This document shows, piece after piece, positions 21,041 through 37,296 of a stretch of DNA of 64,000 nucleotides. How positions within the stretch are numbered: the stretch's first letter is position 1; every line of letters starts with the position of its first letter. The stretch spans positions 26,331-90,330 of the forward strand of contig JAMPAI010000007.1 of NCBI GenBank assembly GCA_023667315.1, read 5' to 3'. Both the position numbers and the translations under genes were made by a program. The notes beneath the pieces are model-generated. The model saw nothing but the letters and a program-made list of their open reading frames with translations, had not been told where the DNA came from and did no database searches. The stretch is from Ruminococcus flavefaciens (GTDB lineage: Bacteria; Bacteroidota; Bacteroidia; Bacteroidales; P3).

Positions 21041-21065
21041 TGCAGAAACAGCAAGCAAGGTGCCT

Positions 21066-22721
21066 ATGACCATCAACGATATCAAGAAACTTATCGCTTC
21101 GGGCGAGTCGAGCACGCTGGAATTGAAGAAGACTACCGGCGAGTTGAAAGACGGCATGCATTCGGCTTGCGCGTTTCTCAATACGGGCGGCGGTTGGCTG
21201 ATATTCGGCGTGACGCCCACGTCTTTGAAGATTGTGGGGCAGGAAGTGTCCGACAGAACACAGCGCGAGATTGCGCAGGCATTGGCTGGGCTGGAACCGG
21301 CGGCAGACGTGCGGGTCGAGTATGTGGATGTGCCGGAACATCCTGGCAATAAGGTGATAGCCATGCACTTCGACGGTTGGGTGTGGGGCGAGCGTCCGCA
21401 TACCTTTCACGGTTGCCCGTATTACAAAGTGGAAAGCACCACCAAGGTGATGCCGCACGAGGTGTATGACGCCCGGATTCGTGCCTATAAGCCGCAGCAG
21501 TATGCATGGGAGCGGGAAATTGCCAACGGCGTTTCGATGGAAGACCTGAATGTAGACCGCATACGGGGGTGCGTCCGTGCCGGTGTGGAAGGCGGGCGTG
21601 TGCCGGAGAGTGCCATGAACGAACCCGTGGAGCAGATTTTGGCCAAGTGGCAGTTGCTTACCGACGGCAAGCCCAATAACGGTGCGGTGGTGCTGTTCTC
21701 CAACAACATATACGAATACCCGCAGTTCAGGCTTCGGTTGGCGCGTTTTATCGGTACCGACAAGAACGAGTTTCTGGATAATCAGCGGGTGGAGGGTAAC
21801 TTTTTCGACTTGCTGGATGCCGGTATGGCGTTTTTCTTTAAGCATCTTCCGCTCAGCGGCAAGATTACGAACCGTAGCCTGATGCGCGAGGAACGTCTTG
21901 AAGTGCCTTACCATGCGTTGCGGGAGGCGTTGATCAACAGCCTTTGTCATCGTCAGTGGGAAAACTATAAGCTTACCAATAGTATTGCCATCTACGACAA
22001 CCGTATCGAGATTGCCAATCCCGGGGTGTTTCCGCCGCAGATTACTGCCGACACCATCAAGAAGCCGCACGAATCGTATCCGTATAACCTTAAGATTGCC
22101 GAGGCCTTGTATAAGTCCAACTTGTTGGAAAGCTGGGGTTCAGGGGCAAGGCGCATTATGGATGCCTGTCGTGCTGATGGGGTGGAAGAACCGGTTTGGA
22201 GTTGGGACGGAGCTTTCGTAACGGTTACCTTCCGCCGTCCGCTAAAGTTTCAAGGAAAGGCCCTAAGTTCGCCCCAAGTTCGCCCTAAGTCCAGTCAAAA
22301 AAGCCCTAAGTTCGCCCTAAGTACCACCCAAGTACCACCCAAGTATGACCCAAGTACGACCCAAGTAAATGAAGCGGTATTCGGTGGCGGTAATAGCGTC
22401 GGTAATAATGGCGGTAATGTTGTTGGTGGTCGGATGAAGAAGGCCCTAAGTACGACCCAAGTACGACCCAAGTACGACCCAAGTACGACCCAAGTACGAA
22501 AATTAATAATGGCTATGTCTCTGGAATATATGGATATTGCGGAAATAATGTCTGTTTGTCAATTGGTTAGTCGGAAGAGATTTCGCGAAAACTACATTGT
22601 TCCGGCTTTGGCGGAGGGGGCTATCGAGCGTAAATATCCGGAACAGCCGAAACATCCCAGGCAGCAGTATAGGCTCACGGCCAAGGCCAAGGCGTGGAAA
22701 GCGGAACAGGAAGACCTATGA
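21066..22721 (+). CDS. AlbA_2/Schlafen-type ATP-binding transcriptional regulator
   Basis: The 551-residue soluble protein has an N-terminal AlbA_2 (Schlafen-like) domain (IASGESSTLELKKTTGELKDG ... ICAFLNTGGG-type pattern, seen as SACAFLNTGGGWLIFGV). A GHKL/HATPase_c_4 region follows (ALREALINSLCHRQW ... NPGVFPPQIT) with the WGSGARRIMDAC motif. A repeat-rich linker (codons from about 22261 to 22498) joins these to a C-terminal winged-helix part (LIMAMSLEYMDIAEIMSVCQ ... RKYPEQPKHPRQQYRLT). The ATG at 21066 is preferred over GTG 21060. Its stop overlaps the response-regulator start by 4 bp, making it the first gene of that operon. The linker DNA is an 11-bp tandem repeat, so slippage would shift the frame. 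Confidence 0.85.
   Translation: MTINDIKKLIASGESSTLELKKTTGELKDGMHSACAFLNTGGGWLIFGVTPTSLKIVGQEVSDRTQREIAQALAGLEPAADVRVEYVDVPEHPGNKVIAMHFDGWVWGERPHTFHGCPYYKVESTTKVMPHEVYDARIRAYKPQQYAWEREIANGVSMEDLNVDRIRGCVRAGVEGGRVPESAMNEPVEQILAKWQLLTDGKPNNGAVVLFSNNIYEYPQFRLRLARFIGTDKNEFLDNQRVEGNFFDLLDAGMAFFFKHLPLSGKITNRSLMREERLEVPYHALREALINSLCHRQWENYKLTNSIAIYDNRIEIANPGVFPPQITADTIKKPHESYPYNLKIAEALYKSNLLESWGSGARRIMDACRADGVEEPVWSWDGAFVTVTFRRPLKFQGKALSSPQVRPKSSQKSPKFALSTTQVPPKYDPSTTQVNEAVFGGGNSVGNNGGNVVGGRMKKALSTTQVRPKYDPSTTQVRKLIMAMSLEYMDIAEIMSVCQLVSRKRFRENYIVPALAEGAIERKYPEQPKHPRQQYRLTAKAKAWKAEQEDL
22261..22498 (+). repeat. 11-bp tandem repeats inside the regulator gene
   Basis: Two blocks occur, 22261-22366 (degenerate) and 22443-22498 (nearly perfect units of AAGTACGACCC). 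Three units make 33 bp and encode an 11-residue repeat containing PKYDPSTTQV. A change of one unit shifts the reading frame. Confidence 0.85.
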
Positions 22722-24076
22722 AACCCAAACAAACCATCTTAGTAGTTGACGACAATGCGGGGGTGCTTACGGCGGTGGAGATGCTGTTGCGGCCTTGCTT
22801 CGGCAAGGTCGTCACGCTTTCCGACCCCAACCGGATTCCCGCTGTGTTGCAGAGCGACAAGCCCGATGCGGTCTTGCTCGACATGAACTTTCACGCCAGC
22901 ATCAATAACGGCAACGAAGGGCTTTTCTGGCTTCGGGAAATCAAGAAACGAAGCCCCTCCACCGAGGTGGTGCTCTTTACCGCCTATGCCGACATCGACC
23001 TGGCCGTGCGCGGCATTCAGGAAGGCGCGGCCGACTTCGTGGTGAAGCCCTTTACCAACGAGAAACTGTTGGCCAGCCTGCAAAACGCCTGCCAGCACAA
23101 GAAAGGCCATGAACCCAAGTCCGCCCCGGCATCCGTCTCCGACAGCAAACCCCCGTTCTTCTGGGGCAAGAGTGCGGCCATGGAACGGATTCGCCTGATG
23201 GTGGAGAAACTGGCCTCCACCGACACCACCCTGCTCATTACCGGCGAGAGCGGCACGGGCAAGGGCATGCTGGCGGCCGAGATTCACCGGCAGTCCGACC
23301 GCCACGGCAAACCCTTCGTGACAGTGGATATGGGCGCCATCACCGAATCGCTCTACGAAAGCGAACTCTTCGGCCATGTAAAGGGCGCGTTCACCGATGC
23401 CCGGCAGGACCGCGCCGGCAAGTTCGAGACAGCCCATCAAGGCACGCTTTTCCTGGACGAAATCGGGAATCTTTCCTATCCACTTCAGGCCAAACTGCTT
23501 ACCGCCCTGCAATACAAGAACATCGTGCGGGTGGGCAGCAACGAGCCCATTACTGTGGACGTGCGCTTTATCTGCGCCACCAACCGCAATCTGTCCGATA
23601 TGGTGAAGAAAGGCGAGTTCCGCGACGACCTGCTGTACCGCATCGACACCATCACCCTTCAGATACCCGCCCTGCGCGAGCGCAAGGAAGACATAGAACC
23701 CCTGGCCAAGATGTTTGCCGAACGCTACGGCGCCCGCTACGGAAAACCCGGCGTTTCGTTGAGCGCCGAAGCCTTGAACGCCCTTAAATCCTATGCCTGG
23801 CCGGGAAATATCCGCGAGTTGGAACACGTAATGGAACGCGCCGTGATTATGGCCGAGGGCGAGGTGCTGGGGGCGTCCGATTTCGAGCTGAACCGCAAGC
23901 CCGCGGCAGTGCAGGCCGATGCGGCGGAATCGGACGACATGCGTATCGAAGACATGGAACGCCTCATGATTCAACGCGCCATCGCCAAGCACGGCGGCAA
24001 CCTCTCGGCGGTGGCCAACGCGCTGGGCATCGCCCGTCAGACCCTCTACAGTAAAATCAAGAAATACGGGCTGTGA
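22718..24076 (+). CDS. sigma-54-dependent response regulator (NtrC family)
   Basis: This 452-residue cytoplasmic activator has a receiver domain with the acidic pair in VVDDN and phospho-acceptor Asp55 (VLLDMNFH), plus Lys110 in VVKPF. The AAA+ domain carries Walker A GESGTGKG (176-183), the sigma-54 contact loop GAFTDA (223-228, variant of GAFTGA) and Walker B LFLDEIG. A Fis-type helix-turn-helix ends the protein (GGNLSAVANALGIARQTLYS). The start overlaps the upstream stop by 4 bp and the kinase start overlaps its own stop, so the three genes are translationally coupled. A likely target is the efflux operon at 29117, which has a -24/-12 promoter and paired palindromes. Confidence 0.95.
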   Translation: MKPKQTILVVDDNAGVLTAVEMLLRPCFGKVVTLSDPNRIPAVLQSDKPDAVLLDMNFHASINNGNEGLFWLREIKKRSPSTEVVLFTAYADIDLAVRGIQEGAADFVVKPFTNEKLLASLQNACQHKKGHEPKSAPASVSDSKPPFFWGKSAAMERIRLMVEKLASTDTTLLITGESGTGKGMLAAEIHRQSDRHGKPFVTVDMGAITESLYESELFGHVKGAFTDARQDRAGKFETAHQGTLFLDEIGNLSYPLQAKLLTALQYKNIVRVGSNEPITVDVRFICATNRNLSDMVKKGEFRDDLLYRIDTITLQIPALRERKEDIEPLAKMFAERYGARYGKPGVSLSAEALNALKSYAWPGNIRELEHVMERAVIMAEGEVLGASDFELNRKPAAVQADAAESDDMRIEDMERLMIQRAIAKHGGNLSAVANALGIARQTLYSKIKKYGL

Positions 24077-25230
24077 TGAAGTTGCGGGAAAAAATAAACC
24101 TGATGCTCGAAGCCGTGGAGAACGGCGACTACACCTTTCGTTTTCCCGAAAACAAGGGCGGCCGTCATCATCGGGAATTCAACGCGGCCTTGAACCGCAT
24201 CGCCCGTATCATTTCCGACACCAAGCAGGAGATAAGGCAGAACGAGATTTTCTACGAACAGGTGTTGCAGACCGTGGAGACGGGCATTGTCGTGTTGGAC
24301 GAAAGCGACGCGGTGGTGCAGTACAACAAGGCGGCCTCCAAACTGTTGGGCGTGAACATGCTTCGGGACTTGCGGCAGTTGGAGCGTTTGAGCGGCGATT
24401 TGGCCTCGGCCGTCTCCACGCTGGGGAACGGCGGTTCACAGACGGTTCAGATTCACAGCGAGCGCGGCAAGATACAGGTGGCGGTGCGGGTTTCGGAAGC
24501 GCAGATAGGGCAGAAGTGCTTGCGCATTGTGGCTTTGAACGATATCGAGAACGAGCTGGATGAAAAGGAAGTGGATGCCTGGATAAGGCTCACGCGGGTG
24601 TTGACGCACGAAATCATGAACTCGGTAACGCCCGTCACGTCTTTGAGCGATACGCTGTTGCACAACTACGCCGGCGGGGATGCCGCCCTGCGCACGGGCT
24701 TGCAGACGATACGCGACACGGGCAAGGGTTTACTCTCTTTTGTGGAATCCTACCGCAGGTTCACTCGTCTGCCCGAACCGGAACCGGCGCTTTTCTACGT
24801 GAACGCTTTTCTGAAACGGATGCTGGAACTGACGCGGCATCAGGCGGAGGATATGCCGGAAGTGGAGGTGAGGATGAGCGTGGAACCGGCCGATTTGATG
24901 GTGTATGCCGATGAACGCCTTATCGGGCAGGTGGTGCTCAACATCTTGAAGAACGCCCGTCAGGCCATCGGAAAGGAGCGTACGGATGGCAGGATTACGG
25001 TGCGCGCCTACGGCAATGAGTCGGGGGCGGTGCATATCGAAATCGGCAACAACGGCCCCAAGATAGATCCAGAACTGGCCGATGAAATCTTTCTGCCTTT
25101 CTTTACCACCAAATCCGACGGCAGCGGTATCGGTCTGGCGGTCTCCCGTCAGTTGATGCGCCTCTCGGGCGGTTCCATCAGCTTGAAATCGGATGATGAA
25201 AGCACCGTCTTTACCTTGCTGTTCCCGTAA
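24076..25230 (+). CDS. soluble PAS-type sensor histidine kinase
   Basis: The 384-residue kinase is the partner of the NtrC-type regulator immediately upstream (TGATG overlap). No membrane helix is present, so it senses in the cytoplasm or through a partner. Residues about 57-150 look like a PAS fold (ILYEQVLQTVETGIVVLDE-type start). The phospho-acceptor is His178 in RVLTHEIMNSVTPV. The ATP-binding end shows an N box (VLNILKNARQAI), a G1 box with GNNGPKI and an F/G2 box (FFTTKSDGSGIGLAVSR). The HEIMNS H-box is typical of NtrY-like kinases. Its stop codon directly abuts the end of the convergent M20 gene, with no terminator between. Confidence 0.93.
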   Translation: MKLREKINLMLEAVENGDYTFRFPENKGGRHHREFNAALNRIARIISDTKQEIRQNEIFYEQVLQTVETGIVVLDESDAVVQYNKAASKLLGVNMLRDLRQLERLSGDLASAVSTLGNGGSQTVQIHSERGKIQVAVRVSEAQIGQKCLRIVALNDIENELDEKEVDAWIRLTRVLTHEIMNSVTPVTSLSDTLLHNYAGGDAALRTGLQTIRDTGKGLLSFVESYRRFTRLPEPEPALFYVNAFLKRMLELTRHQAEDMPEVEVRMSVEPADLMVYADERLIGQVVLNILKNARQAIGKERTDGRITVRAYGNESGAVHIEIGNNGPKIDPELADEIFLPFFTTKSDGSGIGLAVSRQLMRLSGGSISLKSDDESTVFTLLFP

Positions 25231-27171
25231 TCAAGATTCTGAATTCGGTATATTCAATTTTCTACGAGTTATTGGAATTACGAAACTGCGAGGGGGTAAG
25301 GCCGAAATGTTTGCTGAAATATCTGAAAAGTGGGACAACGATTTGAAATTCATTTGTTCTGATAATAGTGTCAGGGACAGGTTTGTGTCAGAAATAGGCT
25401 GCTGCAACTCTGTTATCCATATAGGCTGTGGATTATGACCGCCGAGAATGTATATCTCCCTGTATTGGCTACCTGGTTTGACATTCTTCTCCTTCAGCCA
25501 TTTTTCAAGTTCGCTCCATGTCTTTCCGCAGGTTTTCAGATCCCCTCTGTGGACGGTCACGGCTGCTTGTCCCACTTCGGGCAATTCCATTATTCCATAA
25601 TCAGTTCCGGCGTTTATCTCCGGTGTTACGGGATATGCGGTGATGACCTCCACATCCGCACCTTTCTTCTCGTAGATAGCCATACCGACTGCTCCGATTG
25701 CCACGCCATCGCGGGTGAGCGTTGCATAGAGTTCTTCAAGACCTCTCTCTATCACAGGTGTCAGGTTCTTTTCGCTGAAATTTTTAGCACGGAGCCGTGT
25801 ATATGCCAACCGCTGTGACGGAAGACGTTTTATCTCGGCATTGAATCCATTGTCTGCCGGAGGGTAGCACATTATTTCGGTTCTCTCTTGACTGTTGTTC
25901 CCACGCATCAGAAACTTGACTGCTGTCAACGCATGGGTGGCTGCGATATGGAACAACTCATCAAGAGATATGTGTTCGTCTGCCGCGCTGCATAAGAAAC
26001 TGTCAGGACCATACCAATACGCAGGTATGCCACGGTAACGCCAGTATCGGCAATCGCTTATGGCAATGTCTGGGGTCATGACCGGACGCCTGCCGCTCAG
26101 TTCTTCTGCCGTATCCTGAATCAGTCCGGCTATCTCTGTAAAAGGAGAGCAGATGTCGGCTGAGTCTATGCCGTCCCAATACAATGATGCCTCGGGATAG
26201 CGGCTGACGATTTCCTCTACTTTCTTATAGACGGAATAAGGATCCGCACCCACCGGAATTACCGTGGCGGCGGAAAACTCGCAGTCAGGGGCTATGACAC
26301 ACAATAGACTTCCTCCGTTGACGGTACAGATGTCTGTCGTTATTTTGGCAAGTTGCTCGGCGTGACCGTTGCCACGGATCACTGTGTGGTAACTCACCCA
26401 TTCGGGGTCGTCAAGCATTGCGCGGAGCACCTCAGGCAGTCTTACCTCGATGTTCCCCACTGCATCAAGGTCACGGATTATGTCGGCGGCTATGCGTATG
26501 GCACTCTTTGAATCATTTGAATATCCGGCGATGGCTCCGGGTGTGGAAATTCTTACCGAGAACTGGACGTAGCCCTTTGACGCGAAACTGACAGCATCGA
26601 CACCTGACGGTTCAGCTGTCAGGACGGCGTCAGCCACCATTTCGTCCGGTATGCTCTCAAAAAGGAACCCTGTTCCACGACCATACCCCGTTTCTTCGTC
26701 CGACACAAGCGACAATGACACCTTCCCCGAAAGGTAGCCTTTCAGTTTGGTGACATACTTGTAAGCGAACATAAGAGCGGTAACACCGCCTTTCATGTCG
26801 CCGGCACCACGTCCCCATACCTTTCCATCTGCAATTTTACCACTCCACGGGTCATCACTCCATCCCGGTTCTTCTCCGGCAGGCATTGTGTCAAGATGTC
26901 CGTTGAACATCAGATGCCGTCCGTCATCCGTAAACTTCACTGATGAAAGCATATTCGGCATAGTTTCATTGACACCGAGTATCTTGTATGGTAAATCCGC
27001 ATCCTGCATGAAACGCTCAACAATCGCCATCGCATCACGGGTATCACCCGGCGGATCCTGCGTATTGCAGCGGACAAGGTCGGAACATAACCGCGCCATC
27101 TTCGTCTTGTCGTCCTCGACCCACTGCATGATCCGGGATTTAATCTCCTTATATGTCTTATCTGTTTTCAT
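25231..27171 (-). CDS. M20 peptidase fused to a GyrI-like domain, with a foreign 3' end
   Basis: The 646-residue protein begins with an M20/ArgE-DapE-type metallopeptidase. Metal ligands are His92 and Asp94 in MFNGHLDTMPAGEEPGW, Asp125 in GRGAGDMKGG and Glu159-Glu160 in SDEETGYG. It deacylates or cleaves small amide substrates. Residues about 450-592 form a GyrI-like/effector-binding domain (LAYTRLRAKNF ... PIWITELQQPI), normally found in AraC/MerR regulators as a small-molecule pocket. After residue 592 the sequence is no longer family-like: it runs into an AraC helix-turn-helix tail that is out of frame (25262-25395). The natural stop has probably been lost. The peptidase-GyrI join itself has no frame disruption. 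GC is lower than in the neighbouring kinase. Confidence 0.8.
   Translation of the reverse strand: MKTDKTYKEIKSRIMQWVEDDKTKMARLCSDLVRCNTQDPPGDTRDAMAIVERFMQDADLPYKILGVNETMPNMLSSVKFTDDGRHLMFNGHLDTMPAGEEPGWSDDPWSGKIADGKVWGRGAGDMKGGVTALMFAYKYVTKLKGYLSGKVSLSLVSDEETGYGRGTGFLFESIPDEMVADAVLTAEPSGVDAVSFASKGYVQFSVRISTPGAIAGYSNDSKSAIRIAADIIRDLDAVGNIEVRLPEVLRAMLDDPEWVSYHTVIRGNGHAEQLAKITTDICTVNGGSLLCVIAPDCEFSAATVIPVGADPYSVYKKVEEIVSRYPEASLYWDGIDSADICSPFTEIAGLIQDTAEELSGRRPVMTPDIAISDCRYWRYRGIPAYWYGPDSFLCSAADEHISLDELFHIAATHALTAVKFLMRGNNSQERTEIMCYPPADNGFNAEIKRLPSQRLAYTRLRAKNFSEKNLTPVIERGLEELYATLTRDGVAIGAVGMAIYEKKGADVEVITAYPVTPEINAGTDYGIMELPEVGQAAVTVHRGDLKTCGKTWSELEKWLKEKNVKPGSQYREIYILGGHNPQPIWITELQQPISDTNLSLTLLSEQMNFKSLSHFSDISANISALPPRSFVIPITRRKLNIPNSES
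25262..25395 (-). pseudogene. AraC-family C-terminal helix-turn-helix relic
   Basis: The minus strand reads LSLTLLSEQMNFKSLSHFS in the M20 frame. One frame over it continues YFSKHFGLTPSQFRNSNNS and a TAG at 25262-25264. Adding back a single base after SHFS restores the standard AraC ending (SHFSRYFSKHFGLTPSQFR). Confidence 0.8.
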
Positions 27172-28699: not shown

Positions 28700-28727
28700 A
28701 GCCCGATGAATATCTGATTTCTAACGG

Positions 28728-28735
28728 CAAAAGTA
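28728..28735 (-). promoter_or_regulatory. -7 box of the DUF4143 pseudogene
   Basis: TACTTTTG on the minus strand lies 29 bp upstream of the ATG. Confidence 0.45.
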
Positions 28736-28759
28736 TAAACATGGAATGGATTGCCAAAT

Positions 28760-28825
28760 ATTCGTCCGAAAGATGTGTGAGCCATACACAAAATTCGTCC
28801 GAAAAATGTGTAATCGATACACAAA
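28760..28825. repeat. 33-bp tandem repeat, two units (array C)
   Basis: Two adjacent 33-bp units (28760-28792 and 28793-28825) share ATTCGTCCGAAA, ATGTGT and ATACACAAA. Within each, TGTGT and ACACA form a small dyad. It lies just upstream of the DUF4143 pseudogene promoter. The period is the same as in arrays A and B but the sequence differs. Confidence 0.85.
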
Positions 28826-28901
28826 AAGGGCAGGAAATGGGCTTTGAGGGAAGCCATTTCCGGTGGTGTTCTTTTGAAGTGCGGGTGCATGGCGGCTTAT
28901 G

Positions 28902-28942
28902 CTGTCTAATTTTTAGACAGCCGTTGTCTAAAAATTAGACAA
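28902..28942. promoter_or_regulatory. paired palindromes, putative enhancer sites for the NtrC-type regulator
   Basis: Two perfect 8-3-8 palindromes, 28902-28920 (CTGTCTAATTTTTAGACAG) and 28924-28942 (TTGTCTAAAAATTAGACAA), share TGTCTAA-N3-TTAGACA. Their centres are 22 bp apart, two helical turns. They lie about 55-95 bp upstream of the -24/-12 promoter, the position of sigma-54 activator sites. Confidence 0.75.
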
Positions 28943-28995
28943 TCTTTTGTAGTGGCTATTTTTTCTCTGTATTGATTTTCTTTTAATTACATCTT

Positions 28996-29010
28996 TGGCA
29001 CGCACTTTGC
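28996..29010 (+). promoter_or_regulatory. sigma-54 (-24/-12) promoter of the efflux operon
   Basis: TGGCACGCACTTTGC matches the consensus TGGCACG-N4-TTGC at every fixed position. Transcription would start near 29021, leaving a leader of about 95 bases before the TolC-like gene. Confidence 0.85.
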
Positions 29011-29116
29011 CATTAAATAGGAGCAGAGCTGATTAGGATAAGAGACGGAAGTTCTGGATTCGGAGCAGTTCGGATCCGGCTTCCGCTTCGAAATCCTTTT
29101 GAATTGACGCGAGAAA

Positions 29117-30475
29117 ATGAAAAGAGATAAGAGCTATGTTTTGGCGGCGCTCTGCCTTGCGCTCTGTTTCGCGACGGCAGGAACAAGGGCGTGGGCAAAG
29201 ACGGAAGCGAATCCCGAAGCGCCCTCCCTCTGGACAATGGAAGACTGCATGCGTTTTGCCGCCGAGAATTCCTATGCGGTGAAGCGGCAACGCTACGAAA
29301 CGGCTTCCTATCAGGCCGACCGCGACCAGGCCATCGCCTCCTTCTTCCCTTCGGTAAGCGGCAGTATCGGGGCGCAATACAGTTTCGGGCGCTCCATCGA
29401 CCCGAGCACCAACACCTACAGCGAAGTCGGTCGAACCTTCTACAATACTTACGGGCTTTCGGCCGCGCTCCCCATCTTTAACGGCGGGCGTTACGTAAAG
29501 CAGTGGATGCTGGCATCCTCCAACCTGAAAATGGGAAGGAACGAGATTCAACGCTTAGAAGCTGAGGCCGCCATGAACGCGATGCAGGCCTTTGCCGATG
29601 CGGTGTATTACCGCGAAACGGCGCGGCTTTCGGAACTCAAGCTGCACGAGAGCGAACGCAATCTGCAAAAGGTGAGGCGAGAGGAGGAATTGGGACTGCG
29701 CGGCAAGGCGGACGTGGCCCAGTTCGAAAGCCAGGTGGCCGCCGACGACTACGACCTGACCCATCAGCAGAACCTTTACCGCACCGCCCTCCTGACCCTG
29801 AAGCAGGTGATGAACTATCCCGCGGGCAAGGAACTGGCCTTGGACAGCGTCCTGCCCGAAATTCCCCTGACGGCCTTCGAGGAAGACGCGGACATGATCT
29901 TTGAACGCGCCCAGACCGCCAATCCCTCCGCCCTGCAGGCCAAATACCGCACAAGGGCGGCGCAACTGGAATACAAGATGCGCATCGGGGCGATGATGCC
30001 CAACATCTACGTGCAGGCAGGCTGGAACACCGACTATATAGACGGCTACACCCAAAGTTTCAAGAAGCAGTTCCGCAACAACATGGGCGAATACGTGGCC
30101 GTGGGCGTGAACATTCCCATTTTCGACGGATTGAGCCGCAACACGGCCCTGCGCAAGTCGCGTAACGATATGTTCATTGCCCGCGAGAACGAGAACGAAT
30201 CGCTGCGCCAGCTGCGCGACCTCATAGATCAGGCCTTGATGGACTGCGAGGGCTATGCCAAGGAGGCCGTGCAGATGCAGCGCAAGGTGGAGAGCGACTC
30301 CCTTTCGTATAGGATTGCGCTCCGCCAGTACGAGGAAGGCTTGGTGACGCCCCTGGACGTGCAGACCCGCGCCAACGCGCTCCTGCAGTCGCAGGCCGAG
30401 TTTTTGCAGAGGGTTTTGATGCTGGAGATGCGGCGCAGGACGGTGAATTATTACAAATCAGGTTCACTTTATTAA
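29117..30475 (+). CDS. TolC-family outer-membrane efflux protein
   Basis: This is the outer-membrane channel of a tripartite exporter, 452 residues. A signal peptide (to about AWAKTEA) is followed by two OEP repeats rich in long coiled-coil helices, with TMEDCMRFAAENSYAVKRQR as the typical start. SVSGSIGAQYSFGRS and NIYVQAGWNTDY mark the two beta-barrel strand regions. The adaptor gene follows after 11 bp. It is the first gene of the five-gene operon under the -24/-12 promoter. Confidence 0.93.
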   Translation: MKRDKSYVLAALCLALCFATAGTRAWAKTEANPEAPSLWTMEDCMRFAAENSYAVKRQRYETASYQADRDQAIASFFPSVSGSIGAQYSFGRSIDPSTNTYSEVGRTFYNTYGLSAALPIFNGGRYVKQWMLASSNLKMGRNEIQRLEAEAAMNAMQAFADAVYYRETARLSELKLHESERNLQKVRREEELGLRGKADVAQFESQVAADDYDLTHQQNLYRTALLTLKQVMNYPAGKELALDSVLPEIPLTAFEEDADMIFERAQTANPSALQAKYRTRAAQLEYKMRIGAMMPNIYVQAGWNTDYIDGYTQSFKKQFRNNMGEYVAVGVNIPIFDGLSRNTALRKSRNDMFIARENENESLRQLRDLIDQALMDCEGYAKEAVQMQRKVESDSLSYRIALRQYEEGLVTPLDVQTRANALLQSQAEFLQRVLMLEMRRRTVNYYKSGSLY

Positions 30476-30486
30476 AATCAACGACA

Positions 30487-31737
30487 ATGGACATCATACT
30501 GGAAAAGAAAAAAGGTATCCGCAAGAAACACATCCCCTATATCGTGGGGGGCGGCGTGGTGCTGTTGCTCCTGCTGTGGGTGATTTTCGGCAACCATTCC
30601 TCCACCTTGCGGGTGGAAAGGCGCGGCATTTCGGTGATGGAGGTGACGCGGGGCGAGTTCAACGACTTTATCCGTGTGGACGGGCAGGTTCAACCCATCG
30701 CCATCGTGCAGATAAGCCCTGAGGAAGGCGGCATCGTGCGCGAGAAAGTGGTGGAGGAAGGCGCGCAGGTAAAGAAAGGCGACGTGATCGTGCGGCTTTC
30801 CAACTCGAACCTGGAACTGCAGATTCTGGACGCCGAGGCGCAGCTGGCCGAGAAGCAGAACTTCCTGCGCAACACACAGGTGGCCATGGAGCAGGACAGG
30901 CTCAACAACCTTACCGAACGCCTGCAGCTGGATATGGAGATTTCGCGCAGCCGCCGCGCCTACGAACAGCAGAAACGCCTCTACGAAGAAGACTTGGTGG
31001 CCAGGGAAGTGTACCTCAAGGCCAAGGAAGACTACGAACTGGCCAGCCGCAAATACGGTTTGGTGGACCGCCGGCTCAAGCAGGATTCCCTTTCGCGCAG
31101 CATTCAGATGGAAGAGATGGAGAACAGTCTGGCCAACATGCGGCGCAACCTGCGTCTGGTGCGGGAGCGCAAGGCGCAGCTCGATATCCGTTCGCAGATA
31201 GACGGCGAACTGGGCTTGCTCGACGTGGAATTGGGGCAGAACGTGATGGCGGGGCAGAAGATAGGGCAGATAAACGACCTTTCGGATTTCAAGATTCAGG
31301 CGCAGATAGACGAACACTACATAGACCGCGTACACACGGGGCTTACCGCCACCTTCGAGCGGCAGGGCGCGAGTTTCTCGCTGGCGGTGCGCAAGATCTA
31401 TCCCGAAGTGCGCTCGGGCAAGTTCCGCACCGATTTCGTGTTCACCGATGCCCGCCCCGAAAACATACGCAGCGGTCAGACCTACTACATCAACCTCGAA
31501 CTGGGGCAGAGCGCCGAAAGCGTGCTGATACCCAAAGGCACCTTCTTTCAGAGCACGGGCGGCAGCTGGATCTACGTGCTGGACGCCGACGGAAAGAAGG
31601 CCTACAAGCGCAACATCCGCATAGGCCGTCAGAACCCGCAGTACTATGAGGTGCTGGACGGCCTGGAAGCGGGCGAGAAAGTGATTGTGTCGGGCTACGA
31701 AAGTTTCCGCGGGCACGACGTGTTGATACTGAACTAA
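30487..31737 (+). CDS. HlyD/MFP-family periplasmic adaptor
   Basis: This 416-residue membrane-fusion protein links the inner-membrane ABC part to the TolC-like channel. One N-terminal membrane helix (IVGGGVVLLLLLWVIFG) precedes a lipoyl-like half-motif (VQISPEEGGIVREKVVEEGAQVKKGDVIVRL) and a long helical hairpin. The second half-motif (GLLDVELGQNVMAGQKIGQI) and a beta-barrel region with a final ALxxGEKVIVSGYE-type end follow. It lies 11 bp after the channel gene and 19 bp before the first permease. Confidence 0.93.
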   Translation: MDIILEKKKGIRKKHIPYIVGGGVVLLLLLWVIFGNHSSTLRVERRGISVMEVTRGEFNDFIRVDGQVQPIAIVQISPEEGGIVREKVVEEGAQVKKGDVIVRLSNSNLELQILDAEAQLAEKQNFLRNTQVAMEQDRLNNLTERLQLDMEISRSRRAYEQQKRLYEEDLVAREVYLKAKEDYELASRKYGLVDRRLKQDSLSRSIQMEEMENSLANMRRNLRLVRERKAQLDIRSQIDGELGLLDVELGQNVMAGQKIGQINDLSDFKIQAQIDEHYIDRVHTGLTATFERQGASFSLAVRKIYPEVRSGKFRTDFVFTDARPENIRSGQTYYINLELGQSAESVLIPKGTFFQSTGGSWIYVLDADGKKAYKRNIRIGRQNPQYYEVLDGLEAGEKVIVSGYESFRGHDVLILN

Positions 31738-31756: not shown

Positions 31757-34153
31757 ATGAAAGATATACGGATGGCGTTCCGTACCCTGTTCAGGAAAGG
31801 CAGGTACAATGTGTTGAAAATCGTGTCGCTGGCCATCGGACTGGCGGTGAGCCTGATCCTGTTGGCGCAGGTGTTCTTTGAACGCTCCTTCGAGGCTTTC
31901 TGGCCCGATGCCGACCGGCTGTATATGATAGTGGACCGCTATTCGCTCAATCAGGAAGCCGAAAAGACCACGTTCAAGGTGAGCGGCGGGGTGCCGGCGG
32001 GCGTGAAGGCCGAGATTCCGGGCGTGGAAGACGCCATCCGCTACACGCCCATCCTGGGGGTCAACACCGTCTTGGTGGACGAGGAGGGGCACCGCATCAC
32101 CACCGACTTGCCCATCAATCTTGCCGACTCCAACTTTTTCGACCTGTTTCCGGTAAAACTGCTGGGCGGCGGGAATCCCAAGCAAGTGCTTGCCCGATTG
32201 ACGGACGTGATGATTTCCCGCTCGCTGGCCGAGAAGTTGGGCGGTGTGGAGGCGGCCTTGGACAAACGGCTGTCGGTGGAGTCGATGGAGGGTTTGACCT
32301 TTACCGTGGGCGGCGTGTATGAGGATATGCCCGAAAATTCATCGTTCCGGCGCGACGTTATCGGTTCCTGCGGCCTGATGGGCGAGTGGAGCCTCGGTAA
32401 CTGGGTGGGCAACGACCGCTATACGGGCGTGGTGAAATTGCAGGAAGGCGTTACGCCCGAATCCCTGCGCGGTGCCTTGGACGAGATGATGGCCCGCCAT
32501 GTGGATCCGGAGGAACTGCACGCGGCGGGCTATTCGATGAAGTACGAACTGTGGCCTCTGCGCGACCGTTACCTGATAAACGAGGATCTTCGCGCCCGCC
32601 ATGCCATGATGCTTTTGCTGGCGGTGGCGCTGCTGGCCACGGCCATGCTCAACTACGCGCTCATCAGCCTCTCCTCCATCGTGAACCGGGGCAGGGAAGT
32701 GGCCGTGCACAAGACCTACGGGGCGGGGAAGGGCGCGATATGCCGCAAGGTGTTTGCCGAAACGGCGGTGCATACCCTGCTGGCCCTGTGCCTGTCGGCC
32801 TTGTTGGTGCTGGCCGCCCGCGGGTGGATATACGAACTGCTGGGGGTGAAGGTCTCCACCCTGCTGGGCGCGCAAAGCTCGTGGGGCGTGGTGGCGATAT
32901 GCCTGGTGCTGATGTTCGTTACCGGCATCCTGCCGGGCGTGTTCATGGCGCGGATTCCGGTGTCGGATGTGTTCAGGCGTTTTTCGCAGAACAAGAAGAC
33001 GTGGAAATCGGCCTTGCTGGCCGTTCAGTTCGCCGTGTTCGCCTTTTTGCTGTGCCTGTTGGTGAATGTGGGGCGGCAGTACCGCATGATGGTTTCCTAC
33101 GACCCCGGCTACGAATTCGACAACCTGGCCTATTACGACATGAGCGGTCTGACGGATGGGGATTTGCGGATGAAATTAGTGGACGGACTGCAGCGTTTGC
33201 CGCAGGTGGACAGGGTCAGTTGCGGGTCCGAGCATTTTGCGGGAGGCCTGATGAGCGGCAACAACATCTCGTTTCGCGAGAACAGGATTCGGGACTTGTT
33301 CAACGTGGCCGACCTTTATTATGTGGGCAACGGTTTCATACAGACCATGGGCATGCGTTTGGCCGAGGGTGGGCCTTTTACCGAAAACGTGACGAATTCC
33401 GAACAGATCATGGTGTCGGAATCGTTTGTGGAGAAGATGGGGAATTTCGCCGACTGGAGCGACGGGGCGGTGGGCAGGGAAATCTGCATTACCGAGCATA
33501 ACCGCTGGGGCGATCCCTGCTACACGATATGCGGGGTGTATGAGAATGTGCTTTTGGGCGGTATCGGCGGGGAAGACCCGCGCCCGAGCGTGCTTTTCTA
33601 CAGCAGCGACCCCTCTTGGTACACCTATCTCTGGGTGAGGTTCCACGAACTTACGGGGAGCAACCTTGCCAAGGCCGATTCCGCGCTGGCGGCCCTCTTG
33701 CCCGACCGCGAGGCGAGCCTGCGGCCCTACCGCTTGGATGTGGTGGAGCAATACCGGGAATCGGCGCGTTTCCGCGACAAGGTGCTGGCCGGCGGCGTGG
33801 TGTGCCTGCTCATTACGCTGATGGGTCTGCTGGGTTATATCAACGACGAGGTGACCCGCCGGCGCAAGGAAATCTCGATCCGCCGCGTGAACGGGGCGGA
33901 CGAAAGCCGCATCCTGAAGATCTTTTCGCTCGACGTGCTTAAGGTGGCGCTTCCCGCCGCGGTGGCAGGTGCGGCGGCCTCCTATTGGGTGTCGTTCCGC
34001 TACCTGCAGCAGTTCTCGGTAAAGGTGTCGCTTTCGGCCTGGGTTTATCCCCCTGCCATCGCGGTGGTGCTGGCCATCGGCTACCTCTGCGTGCGCCTGC
34101 GTGTGCGCCTCTTCCTGCGCGAGAATCCCATCGAGGGCCTGCGCACCGAATAA
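31757..34153 (+). CDS. ABC transporter permease, FtsX/MacB-like (first)
   Basis: The 798-residue protein has the two-module form common in Bacteroidetes. An N-terminal membrane helix, a large periplasmic MacB_PCD-like domain and a three-helix FtsX block (MLLLAVALLATAMLNYALIS ... REVAVHKTYGAGKGAI) are followed by a second such set. The last block (GVVCLLITLMGLLGYIND, then RRKEISIRRVNGADESRIL) ends with FLRENPIEGLRTE. Such permeases act with a LolD/MacB-type ATPase in mechanotransmission-type export rather than classical transport. The ATPase is the next gene. Substrate unknown. Confidence 0.9.
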   Translation: MKDIRMAFRTLFRKGRYNVLKIVSLAIGLAVSLILLAQVFFERSFEAFWPDADRLYMIVDRYSLNQEAEKTTFKVSGGVPAGVKAEIPGVEDAIRYTPILGVNTVLVDEEGHRITTDLPINLADSNFFDLFPVKLLGGGNPKQVLARLTDVMISRSLAEKLGGVEAALDKRLSVESMEGLTFTVGGVYEDMPENSSFRRDVIGSCGLMGEWSLGNWVGNDRYTGVVKLQEGVTPESLRGALDEMMARHVDPEELHAAGYSMKYELWPLRDRYLINEDLRARHAMMLLLAVALLATAMLNYALISLSSIVNRGREVAVHKTYGAGKGAICRKVFAETAVHTLLALCLSALLVLAARGWIYELLGVKVSTLLGAQSSWGVVAICLVLMFVTGILPGVFMARIPVSDVFRRFSQNKKTWKSALLAVQFAVFAFLLCLLVNVGRQYRMMVSYDPGYEFDNLAYYDMSGLTDGDLRMKLVDGLQRLPQVDRVSCGSEHFAGGLMSGNNISFRENRIRDLFNVADLYYVGNGFIQTMGMRLAEGGPFTENVTNSEQIMVSESFVEKMGNFADWSDGAVGREICITEHNRWGDPCYTICGVYENVLLGGIGGEDPRPSVLFYSSDPSWYTYLWVRFHELTGSNLAKADSALAALLPDREASLRPYRLDVVEQYRESARFRDKVLAGGVVCLLITLMGLLGYINDEVTRRRKEISIRRVNGADESRILKIFSLDVLKVALPAAVAGAAASYWVSFRYLQQFSVKVSLSAWVYPPAIAVVLAIGYLCVRLRVRLFLRENPIEGLRTE

Positions 34154-34202
34154 TCACGCAAAATCACAGAAACAGCAAATAAAAAACATAAAACATACGG
34201 AT

Positions 34203-34892
34203 ATGGAAGCAATGATCAAACTGGAAAATCTGAGCAAGGTGTTCCGCACCGAAGAAGTGGAAACCGTGGCCCTGAACAAGGTGGACATGGAGGTGAAGGA
34301 AGGCGAGTTCGTGGCTATCATGGGGCCTTCGGGCTGCGGGAAATCGACCCTGCTCAACATCATCGGGCTTTTGGATAACCCCACTTCGGGCAGCTACCGC
34401 CTGCTCGACCACGAGGTGGCCGCGCTCAAGGAAAGCGAACGGACGCGGTTCCGCAAGGGCAATATCGGCTTCGTGTTCCAAAGCTTCAACCTGATTGATG
34501 AACTGAATGTGTTCGAGAACGTGGAACTGCCTTTGCTCTACCTGAACATCAAGGCAAGCGAGCGCAAGGAAAAGGTGAATGCCATCCTGAAAAGGGTAGG
34601 GCTGAGCCATCGCGCCAAGCATTTCCCGCAGCAGCTTTCGGGCGGACAACAGCAGCGGGTGGCCATTGCCCGTGCGGTGGTGAGCAATCCCAAGCTGATT
34701 CTGGCGGACGAACCCACGGGTAACCTCGATTCCAAGAACGGCGCGGAGGTGATGAAGTTGTTGGGTGAACTCAACGCGGAGGGCACCACGATCGTGATGG
34801 TGACGCACTCCAAGCACGACGCGGGTCTGGCACACCGGGTGGTGAACCTTTTCGACGGCAGTGTGGTGGCCTCGGTGGGCACTTTCGTGTAG
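34203..34892 (+). CDS. ABC transporter ATPase, LolD/MacB type
   Basis: This 229-residue nucleotide-binding protein contains Walker A GPSGCGKS, Q-loop VFQSFNLIDEL, the ABC signature LSGGQQQR, Walker B LILADEPTGNLD and the H-loop VMVTHS in the right order. The NLID-variant Q-loop fits the LolD/MacB/FtsE clade. The ATG at 34203 gives MEAMIKLENLS, and a second ATG three codons on is also possible. It sits between two FtsX-like permease genes that it probably energises as a heterodimer. The spacings of 49 and 52 bp keep it in the operon. Confidence 0.95.
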   Translation: MEAMIKLENLSKVFRTEEVETVALNKVDMEVKEGEFVAIMGPSGCGKSTLLNIIGLLDNPTSGSYRLLDHEVAALKESERTRFRKGNIGFVFQSFNLIDELNVFENVELPLLYLNIKASERKEKVNAILKRVGLSHRAKHFPQQLSGGQQQRVAIARAVVSNPKLILADEPTGNLDSKNGAEVMKLLGELNAEGTTIVMVTHSKHDAGLAHRVVNLFDGSVVASVGTFV

Positions 34893-34944
34893 TCGGAAGG
34901 CGGCAGTTTCCGTAAGGTTTCACTTCACCTTTAAATTTACAGCC

Positions 34945-37296
34945 ATGATTAATTTTCATTCCTTTCTAAAATTCTTGAACCGGAACAAGGTTTATACCGT
35001 CATCAATGTATTCGGGCTGGCCGTCTCGCTGATGTTCGTGATTCTGATTTTTGTCTATGCGTGGCAGGAATTCACTGTGGATAAATTTCAGGCGGACAGG
35101 GAACGGATTTATGTAGAATACGATTTCGGGGCGGATGGCGAAGATGGGCCGGGCGACGGGCTTCCCGTGGCCTATTGGCTCAAAGAGCGTTTTCCCGACA
35201 TTGAGGAAATCTGTCCGGTCATCACCACGCAATTCCACGGGGGCAAGAGCGTGATATGGCACGACACCAAGATAACCGCCAAGATGAGTTGTGCCGAAAG
35301 CAATTTCTTTACTTTCTTCTCGTTTCCCTTGAAAAGCGGCGCACCCGGGCAGGTGTTGCAGGATGAATACAGCGCGGTGGTTTCCGAGACCTTTGCCCGA
35401 AAACTGTTCGGCAGCGAGGAGCCGATAGGGCAGAGTATCAAGATTAGCGAAGAAACTTCGGTAACGGTTACCGGCGTGATGTACGACATTTCCCGTTCAG
35501 TGATTCCCTATGCCGATTTGATTGTGCGGGTGGAAAGGGCGGAGGAATTCAATCATTTCATCAGCAAGCAGAATGCCAGCAATGCCGGTGCCAGCGTGGT
35601 CTTTCTCAAGATGTATCCGGGCAAGGACATGAACGCGCATCGGGACGAAGTGTTGGAAATGTACAAGGAAAGGTATTGGATCTTTTACCGCGAATTTTGC
35701 ACGGATGTGTGCTGGAAACCCTTGCGGGAGGCTTACTTCTCTGCAGGAGGCTCGTTGATAGAAACGGGCGACAAACGTTTCGTGTCGGTGCTTTTTGCGG
35801 TGGGCTTGCTGATACTTTTCTTCGCCATCTTCAACTACATCAACCTTACCGTGGCCCAGTCGGGCAGCCGAGCCAAGGAAATGGCCACCCGCCGTCTGTT
35901 GGGTTCCTCGCGGGGCGGCATCGTGTTCCGCTTGGTGGTGGAAGCGCTCCTGCTTACGGCGGTTTCCTATCTGCTGGCCTTGTTGTTGGCCACGGCGGTG
36001 AAGCCGGTGTCGGAACGCCTCTTGCAGACCACGCTCGACTTTTCGCTTCTGCTTTCGCCCGCCTGCATCGCCCTTGCCGTAGGCTTTGTGGTGCTGATAG
36101 GTGCGCTCACGGGCATCCTGCCTGCTGTCTTGATCTCGGCCGCCAAGCCGGTGGAAGTGGTGCGCGGCTCGTTCCGCCGCCGTTCCAAGATGGTGTTCAG
36201 CAAGTATTTTATCGGCTTTCAGAACGCCATTACCATTGTGATGCTGGCCGTTTCGTTGGTCATGGTGTTGCAGATGCGCCACCTGATACACGCTCCCTTG
36301 GGCTACAATACACTCAACGTAATTGATATTACGTATGTCTTAGGGGTTGACGACAAGGTATTGATGGACAAATTGTCTTCGGTACCCAGCGTAAAGCGGG
36401 TGGGAACCTCCCAAGGGACGCCTTTCGACGGGGGCAATAATAGTTCGGGAGACTATTGCGGCAGGCAGTTGTCGGTGCAGTGGATCTTTATGGATACGGC
36501 GGCTTTCCATATGTTGGGATTCCAGAAGGTGTATGAGAACTCCCGAAAGCAGACAATGCGTCAGGACGACAGATATGATTTCGAAATTTATCCCACCGCA
36601 TTTGCCATGCAGGAAATGGGCTTGCCCCAGGATGCTGACGAATTTGATTTGGGCGGACAGGAAAAGATTCCTGTTTGCGGGGTAATCGGCAATTTCAGAA
36701 GGGCTAATATCCTGAGAAAGGAACAGCCTTTTGTGGTGGGGGTGACAAACGACGTGTTAGAAGATGCGTGGAATCTCTTGGTGGAGGTGCAGGGCGATCC
36801 GGTAAGGGCGTACGATGAGGTGATGGGCGCGATAAGGGAACTTACCGACGGGGAAGTGGAGGCCAAGTTTATCGACCAAGAGGTGCGGGAGTCGTTCGAT
36901 TCGCAACGCCGCATGACGCAGATTGTGTCCATCTTCACCTGTATGGCCATCCTTATTTCGGTGCTGGGACTGGTGGCGATGTCCATCTACTTTATCCGCC
37001 AGCGGGCGCAGGAAGTGGCGGTGCGCAAGGTGTTCGGCGCCGACAACCGCACGGTGCTCTTCCGCGTGGTGCGCTCGTTCCTGCTCTACGTGCTCTATGG
37101 CTTCGTGGTGGCCTTCCCCGTGTCGTGGTACATCGCGGTGAAATGGCGCTCGGGCTATTCCTACCGCATAGCCTTCAACCCGCTCTACATCGTGGCCGCC
37201 GGCCTCTTCTGCATGGCGGTCTCCTTCGTGGCCGTCTATTTCCAAAGCCGCCGTGCCGCCCACGCAAATCCTGTGGAGAGTTTGCGGGAGGTGTAA
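34945..37296 (+). CDS. ABC transporter permease, FtsX/MacB-like (second)
   Basis: The 783-residue protein resembles the first permease in layout, with an N-terminal helix (VINVFGLAVSLMFVILIFVY) and a periplasmic domain. An FtsX block follows (LLILFFAIFNYINLTVAQSG ... KEMATRRLLGSSRGGI), then a second periplasmic domain and a terminal block with QEVAVRKVFGADNRTVLF. It ends PVESLREV, as usual for the clade. The ATG at 34945 was chosen because the longer frame is the ATPase tail out of phase. It closes the sigma-54-controlled operon; a perfect hairpin follows. Confidence 0.92.
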   Translation: MINFHSFLKFLNRNKVYTVINVFGLAVSLMFVILIFVYAWQEFTVDKFQADRERIYVEYDFGADGEDGPGDGLPVAYWLKERFPDIEEICPVITTQFHGGKSVIWHDTKITAKMSCAESNFFTFFSFPLKSGAPGQVLQDEYSAVVSETFARKLFGSEEPIGQSIKISEETSVTVTGVMYDISRSVIPYADLIVRVERAEEFNHFISKQNASNAGASVVFLKMYPGKDMNAHRDEVLEMYKERYWIFYREFCTDVCWKPLREAYFSAGGSLIETGDKRFVSVLFAVGLLILFFAIFNYINLTVAQSGSRAKEMATRRLLGSSRGGIVFRLVVEALLLTAVSYLLALLLATAVKPVSERLLQTTLDFSLLLSPACIALAVGFVVLIGALTGILPAVLISAAKPVEVVRGSFRRRSKMVFSKYFIGFQNAITIVMLAVSLVMVLQMRHLIHAPLGYNTLNVIDITYVLGVDDKVLMDKLSSVPSVKRVGTSQGTPFDGGNNSSGDYCGRQLSVQWIFMDTAAFHMLGFQKVYENSRKQTMRQDDRYDFEIYPTAFAMQEMGLPQDADEFDLGGQEKIPVCGVIGNFRRANILRKEQPFVVGVTNDVLEDAWNLLVEVQGDPVRAYDEVMGAIRELTDGEVEAKFIDQEVRESFDSQRRMTQIVSIFTCMAILISVLGLVAMSIYFIRQRAQEVAVRKVFGADNRTVLFRVVRSFLLYVLYGFVVAFPVSWYIAVKWRSGYSYRIAFNPLYIVAAGLFCMAVSFVAVYFQSRRAAHANPVESLREV

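Follow-up and report, generated by a model that had tools for sequence, protein, structure and literature searches.

An exporter operon with paired palindromes and a -24/-12 element

The window, by which we mean the whole stretch of 64,000 nucleotides analysed here, stems from a Bacteroidales genome of 2.93 Mb in 88 contigs. The original prediction had placed a TolC/HlyD/FtsX exporter operon behind a sigma-54 promoter, and Pfam matches indeed give the order TolC, HlyD, FtsX, ABC and FtsX (Table 1), which comprises the MacAB-TolC-like set of outer membrane factor, adaptor, MacB-type permease and ABC ATPase. An NtrC-type activator and its kinase had been proposed to lie about 4 kb away (22718-25230). 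Both are present according to Pfam and sequence, with 3.7 kb between the end of the kinase gene and the first palindrome. The regulator has the architecture of the NtrC family, i.e. a receiver domain, an AAA+ sigma-54 domain with a GAFTGA-type loop (here GAFTDA) and a Fis helix-turn-helix (HTH). A sigma-54 gene is found in the host genome (PF04552 match). Other NtrC-type regulators are encoded in this genome (five matches in G000, some of them proteins without AAA+), and one of these could bind the palindromes instead.

Genes for an M20 peptidase and a DUF4143 ATPase lie between the kinase gene and the operon on the minus strand. The peptidase and a C-terminal GyrI-like domain share a single open reading frame (25231-27171). 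On the other side, an open reading frame with Schlafen AlbA_2/Fic-like_C similarity (21060-22721) overlaps the ATG of the regulator gene by 4 nt; no Schlafen match was found in loci L048-L054.

Table 1. Position of the regulatory genes, candidate control elements and exporter genes in the window
Feature	Position	Strand	Basis
NtrC-type response regulator (receiver, AAA+ with GAFTDA, Fis HTH)	22718..24076	+	Pfam, sequence, alignment
PAS histidine kinase; begins with GTG 24073 or ATG 24076 (uncertain)	24073..25230	+	Pfam, sequence
Distal candidate enhancer palindrome, 8-3-8	28902..28920	.	exact; kept in relatives
Proximal candidate enhancer palindrome, 8-3-8	28924..28942	.	exact; kept in relatives
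-24/-12 (sigma-54) promoter element TGGCACGCACTTTGC	28996..29010	+	exact match; position conserved
TolC-like outer membrane efflux protein; operon gene 1	29117..30475	+	Pfam
HlyD-type adaptor	30487..31737	+	Pfam
FtsX/MacB_PCD permease 1	31757..34153	+	Pfam
ABC ATPase; start from the mechanical ORF call, the real one probably further downstream	34101..34892	+	Pfam
FtsX/MacB_PCD permease 2; the real start is probably further downstream	34861..37296	+	Pfam

The predicted pair of perfect 8-3-8 palindromes with a spacing of 22 bp is exact. The distal core TGTCTAA-TTT-TTAGACA covers positions 28903-28919 and the proximal core TGTCTAA-AAA-TTAGACA positions 28925-28941; one extra complementary base per side turns both into 8-3-8 palindromes, which start 93 bp (distal) and 71 bp (proximal) upstream of the start of the -24/-12 element. 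The claim that the palindrome is absent elsewhere in the window also held, as the sole further match with up to three mismatches has all three (28807-28823). The rest of the genome contains no site with zero or one mismatch and three sites with two. When 28700-29116 was shuffled 1000 times with dinucleotides preserved, no tandem pair had fewer than 8 mismatches in 28 positions, compared to none in the real sequence. Two perfect 7-3-7 palindromes of any sequence at a distance of 20-24 bp appeared in none of 1000 separate shuffles, and a single one in 38 of this same set. As a separate observation, TGTGTGA/TGTGTAA...TACACA repeats with a common ATTCGTCCGAAA flank are located at 28775-28823, upstream of the DUF4143 ATPase gene; similar TGTGTGA-type repeats occur near DUF4143 in L050 (5499) and after the kinase gene in L048 (5561, 5594).

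The -24/-12 element agrees with the consensus as predicted: TGGCACGCACTTTGC has no mismatch, with the GG and GC of TGGCAC-N5-TTGC correctly spaced, and its position would lead us to expect a transcription start near 29021. By itself the match carries little weight. A second perfect match is present in the window at 35579-35593 (minus strand, intragenic), and matches with at most one mismatch number eight as compared to 5.0 expected, so near the control level that we rejected the element alone as evidence. A single exact palindrome was likewise rejected, as it is not enriched in the order (13 of 393 genomes) and stays below the count for the reversed control (21). The weight rests on the combination of the parts and on its conservation.

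Arrangement in the genus, and a subclade where operator and DNA-binding helix vary together

An orthologue-like regulator (at least 50% identity over its length) was found in only 8 of the 13 genomes of the genus, the window's own included, which speaks against a general link; in the 7 of the 12 others that have it, identity ranges from 50 to 96% over the length. In the genome with the closest regulator (G396, 96%), operators and promoter are kept and the DNA immediately upstream differs. Regulator and kinase genes directly precede the operon in G401, with the operators between the kinase and TolC genes, and in G400 a single DUF4143 gene separates them from it. Given this compact and near-compact arrangement, the M20 peptidase and DUF4143 genes look like insertions into a once-compact unit. 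In L049 (4580-4611, minus strand) the -12 element ends just 18 nt before the TolC ATG, and the predicted transcript would be nearly leaderless.

In the excrementavium-like group, the regulator is 58% identical and its HTH ends in LYRKMKKYG as opposed to LYSKIKKYG. The palindrome of this group is TGTAACAC-N2-GTGTTACA and starts 94 bp upstream of the TGG before TolC (L053, L058); a site of this type was not found in L051 with the pattern used. Ahead of the regulator gene, L052 and L053 have a similar, imperfect pair located 94 bp upstream of a TGGCAT, which may indicate autoregulation in this group. Because the operator sequence changes together with the DNA-binding helix of the regulator, the regulator is the predicted binder. 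We also considered the recognition-helix residue after LY as the specificity determinant. Rows with N or S at this position mostly have TGTC sites and rows with A, K or R mostly TGTA sites; given the exceptions (L184 and one site of L054) and the few independent cases, this trend is suggestive only.

Conserved geometry across Bacteroidales

Loci were sampled by an HlyD alignment scan of the order, keeping the best 80 of 451 relatives, and their genes were located by tblastn. As operator we accepted the best tandem pair with at most 8 mismatches in 28 positions, a spacing of 20-24 bp and a distance of at most 350 nt from TolC, widened to 800 nt for L053, L058 and L059. The rule was applied to 84 loci, of which six lacking a TolC start were skipped (L060, L067, L087, L088, L114, L132). 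Judged by length and content, L050 and L057 are one contig, as are L053 and L059; L077 is an artefact, its gene being truncated where the contig begins.

Among loci that encode the complete NtrC-type regulator, 21 of 25 (or 20 of 23 when each contig is counted once) had the tandem operator, at a spacing of 22 bp in 16, 21 bp in four and 20 bp in one, and the -24/-12 element started 70-73 bp from the start of the proximal palindrome in all 21. The misses are L053 and L059 (one contig), which carry another palindrome, L054 with nine mismatches and a weaker -12, and L105, where operators and -24/-12 were seen by eye before an FtsX gene. Where the sampled locus contains no regulator, 13 of 15 loci have the operator, all at 21 bp and all with the -24/-12 at 71-72 bp, the misses being L058 (variant palindrome) and the artefact L077. 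The operators thus go with the operon. They were further found in 2 of 2 loci with a broken or cut regulator and in 2 of 2 with a full-length regulator carrying GSFTSA. The latter two (L125, L126), with GSFTSA in place of GAFTDA, have degenerate -24/-12 elements (TGGCTC...TTTGG and TGGCCT...TTTGG). For each locus passing the rule, none of 100 shuffles was as good. Phocaeicola coprocola is an example of a cultured gut commensal whose locus is arranged in this way.

In the first two classes together, each of the 34 loci with operators has a -24/-12 (at most two mismatches), which starts 70-73 bp from the beginning of the proximal palindrome and 91-94 bp from that of the distal one. This bears on the possibility that the palindromes are operators of another regulator, e.g. 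a repressor, and lie near a sigma-54 promoter by chance. Perfect inverted repeats of such size are common repressor sites. We nevertheless consider this explanation improbable in view of the nearly fixed distances of 91-94 and 70-73 bp to the -24/-12 in these 34 loci of two classes, of the joint variation of operator and HTH in one subclade and of the finding, detailed below, that spacing and promoter type track the kind of regulator encoded beside the operon.

The original prediction had also placed both palindromes on the same face of the DNA. This argument is only approximate, because the spacing is 20, 21 or 22 bp in the operon family and 23 bp in a full-length paralogue of P. gordonii.

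Further promoters of this type

A search for the palindrome upstream of -24/-12 sites, as had been suggested, was run on 247 genomes of the order with the pattern 'palindrome, 51-57 nt, TGGCA'. It gave 21 matches in 10 genomes, the window's own site included, as compared to two for the reversed pattern. A second palindrome (at most 5 mismatches in 14 positions) lies 21-23 bp upstream in 19 of the 21, and 16 of these 19 paired sites lead into TolC, HlyD, FtsX or ABC genes. The first genes are TolC-like in five cases, HlyD in one, FtsX in eight and ABC in two; two others match no protein of the window and one is off the contig. G105 alone has eight such promoters. Two of this set (L207, L209) precede genes that match no protein of the window, namely one for a putative lipoprotein that looks, by eye, like a serine hydrolase and one for a small exported protein. 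Two sites of G257 (L191, L199) have a 23 bp spacing before TGGCA. The P. gordonii paralogue (L181) combines a full-length regulator, a 23-bp pair and TGGCACGTGTTTTGC with its own TolC-HlyD-FtsX-ABC operon. Among the 12 other loci with the exact palindrome (L006-L017), at least four (L007, L008, L012, L013) have TGGCA about 70-93 bp downstream.

A branch of regulators without the AAA+ domain

The regulator encoded next to this operon lacks an AAA+ domain in 34 loci, most of them Prevotella-like. It consists of a receiver and a Fis HTH only (Pfam on two), an architecture of the RegA/PrrA type, and is 174-202 residues long in 32 of the 34; L109 is longer with an odd tail and L131 is cut. A guess from short matches that the protein is of the LytTR type was dropped, as the Fis HTH is present. 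Many of these rows are close kin, and the counts that follow are therefore not independent events. The tandem operator was found in 28 of the 34 loci, all at 23 bp, and none of the 28 has a -24/-12 in place. Two of the misses (L090 and, by eye, L106) have a TGTATTA-type pair at 23 bp, one (L123) a pair before HlyD (by eye) and three (L095, L129, L131) at most one site. TAnnTTTG, which we take to be the housekeeping -7 element of Bacteroidetes, follows in 29 of the 31 loci examined, beginning 48-50 nt behind the palindrome (49 nt in 25), with a -33 TTG 20-26 nt before it in only 19 of the 31. Within this operon family the 23 bp spacing marks AAA-less regulators; as a general mark it was not upheld, given the 23 bp of the full-length paralogue L181.

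The kinases also differ. Of one scanned from each kind, the AAA-less one gave no PAS match and the full-length-type one did. The N-terminal part before the H-box comprises 80-84 residues in AAA-less kinases (31 rows) and 170-228 in the full-length type (10 rows), values valid only where the H-box pattern matched, as other values are script artefacts; where measurable, the stretch ahead of the H-box is thus some 140 residues shorter in AAA-less kinases than in most of the full-length type.

These findings bear on the promoter in the window. That its operon is run by a housekeeping promoter, with the -24/-12 match as a relic or a chance event, we regard as very improbable: TAnnTTTG is absent between 28942 and 29116 and occurs in 2 of 22 loci of the full-length class, where the -24/-12 is present in 21 of 21 loci with operators. 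In favour of a housekeeping promoter, the -24/-12 match by itself is near chance, the related AAA-less operons do use TAnnTTTG, and three of the 14 loci that lack a regulator in the locus have this element too (offset 49 in two).

Origin of the AAA-less branch

Loss of sigma-54 was rejected as the cause of the AAA-less branch because the cells still encode it: PF04552 was found in 27 of 28 AAA-less genomes searched and in 21 of 22 others, with misses for L109 and L135. In a quick-method HlyD tree of 81 rows, from which L057 and the six skipped loci were omitted among others, the 34 AAA-less rows form one clade (100) inside the sigma-54 operons, adjoining the Bacteroidaceae-type operons (94). 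Support for the outgroup branch is weak (71), and long branches come together at that point. In the kinase tree (72 rows, quick method, paralogue loci and L048 left out), 14 Bacteroidaceae-type full-length and 37 AAA-less rows split off together (100), 36 of the AAA-less rows as a group (100), and the AAA-less rows L185, L186 and L187 are placed elsewhere.

The regulator tree (71 rows, 181 columns, outgroup L042 and L043) places the main group of AAA-less regulators as a neighbour of the full-length clade and outside it. It left out L063, L127 and L131 (broken or cut), L026, L027, L030 and L033 (open reading frames lacking the HTH), the near copy L048, and L109 and L119 (tails; the omission of L119 was unneeded). 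Forcing the AAA-less group together with the Bacteroidaceae-type regulators costs 1.4 log units (AU p 0.47) in a comparison that left out eight more rows (L042, L043, L054, L181, L182, L183, L187, L189). The regulator tree alone does not decide between these placements. Regulators of 258-283 residues that lack the AAA+ core (L185, L186, L188) are nested among the full-length ones, a loss separate from that of the main group; such separate loss in related Parabacteroides regulators suggests that AAA loss recurs.

The HlyD and kinase trees suggest that the AAA-less form is likely one derived switch of this operon. In its full form, we give an even chance to the reading that control of the operon passed a single time from sigma-54 to the housekeeping factor, with the AAA+ domain of the activator and the PAS domain of the kinase deleted and operators and target kept, the spacing going from 20-22 to 23 bp and TAnnTTTG arising about 49 nt after the operator; the 23 bp spacing beside a full-length paralogue lowered our confidence in it. 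It is quite conceivable, if somewhat short of an even chance, that the AAA-less regulator is instead an old paralogue that replaced the full-length one and not the same protein minus AAA+. Among 19 genomes of the full-length type that were searched, two, P. gordonii and P. oris, have both kinds of regulator; their AAA-less loci have 23-bp operators followed by TACATTTG (P. gordonii) or TACTTTTG (P. oris), and the position of the main AAA-less group beside the full-length clade fits replacement as well. It is opposed by the nesting of the AAA-less clade among sigma-54 operons in the HlyD tree and by the common split of both kinds of kinase, and the regulator data do not reject the Bacteroidaceae-type placement.

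Proposed circuit and relation to known systems

On the basis of these sequence comparisons, we consider it very probable that the element in the window is the sigma-54 promoter of a MacAB-TolC-like exporter and that the palindromes form the enhancer for the nearby NtrC-type regulator. The kinase would sense a signal and phosphorylate the regulator encoded 4 kb upstream; the phosphorylated regulator would bind both palindromes and assemble an AAA+ ring, which would remodel the sigma-54 RNA polymerase waiting at the -24/-12. The exporter would then be made when the kinase senses its signal, and might export a toxic peptide or drug-like compound. The predicted circuit from kinase to activator to exporter is supported computationally, because regulator and kinase adjoin the operon in G401 and the geometry of the operators is narrow across Bacteroidales. 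The parts themselves, including the sigma-54 gene, their rarity in the genome, the link to the regulator family and the joint change of operator and helix were computed as well, and binding is predicted.

For a wide family of exporters in gut Bacteroidales, the analysis names an operator, an activator and a promoter that can be tested. The similar operators with and without an AAA+ motor amount to a natural experiment on the departure of an activator from sigma-54, and exchange between the classes could show what motor, operator spacing and core promoter each contribute. In a literature search of titles and abstract openings, with few subscription papers covered, we recognised none that dealt with this operator or with the switch to the AAA-less form; within this scope, the conserved operator and its AAA-less counterpart are the part not found in print.

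The circuit itself is a well-supported case of a known control type. With NtrC-family two-component control of sigma-54 promoters it shares the receiver, the AAA+ domain with GAFTDA, the Fis HTH, the adjacent kinase, the paired palindromes and the -24/-12; it differs from the typical case in its target, an exporter operon, in the operator TGTCTAA-N3-TTAGACA and in the narrow distance to the -24 across the order. The exporter has the TolC protein, HlyD-type adaptor, FtsX/MacB_PCD permeases and ABC ATPase of MacAB-TolC tripartite systems, with the difference that ATPase and permease are separate genes and that two permeases are present. Promoters of the -24/-12 type have been reported in a flavobacterium, according to passages of that paper (PMC9723704). 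Predicted sigma-54 sites precede FtsX-type peptide ABC exporters in Bacteroidia, the same link between sigma-54 and exporter in the same bacterial class as here; unlike the present analysis, the passages at hand from that study name no operator, activator or AAA-less form (PMC12316311). As described in passages on Rhodobacter capsulatus and Caulobacter, NtrC proteins without GAFTGA act at sigma-70 promoters (PMC10274813). Like the AAA-less branch they have left sigma-54, but in them the AAA+ domain is kept and the loop deleted, whereas in the branch described here the whole AAA+ domain is gone. By architecture alone, the AAA-less regulators may be likened to regulators of the RegA/PrrA/ActR type, which consist of a receiver and a Fis HTH only and so have the same domain content. 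Unlike these, the AAA-less branch shares its operators and its target with an NtrC-type sister system.
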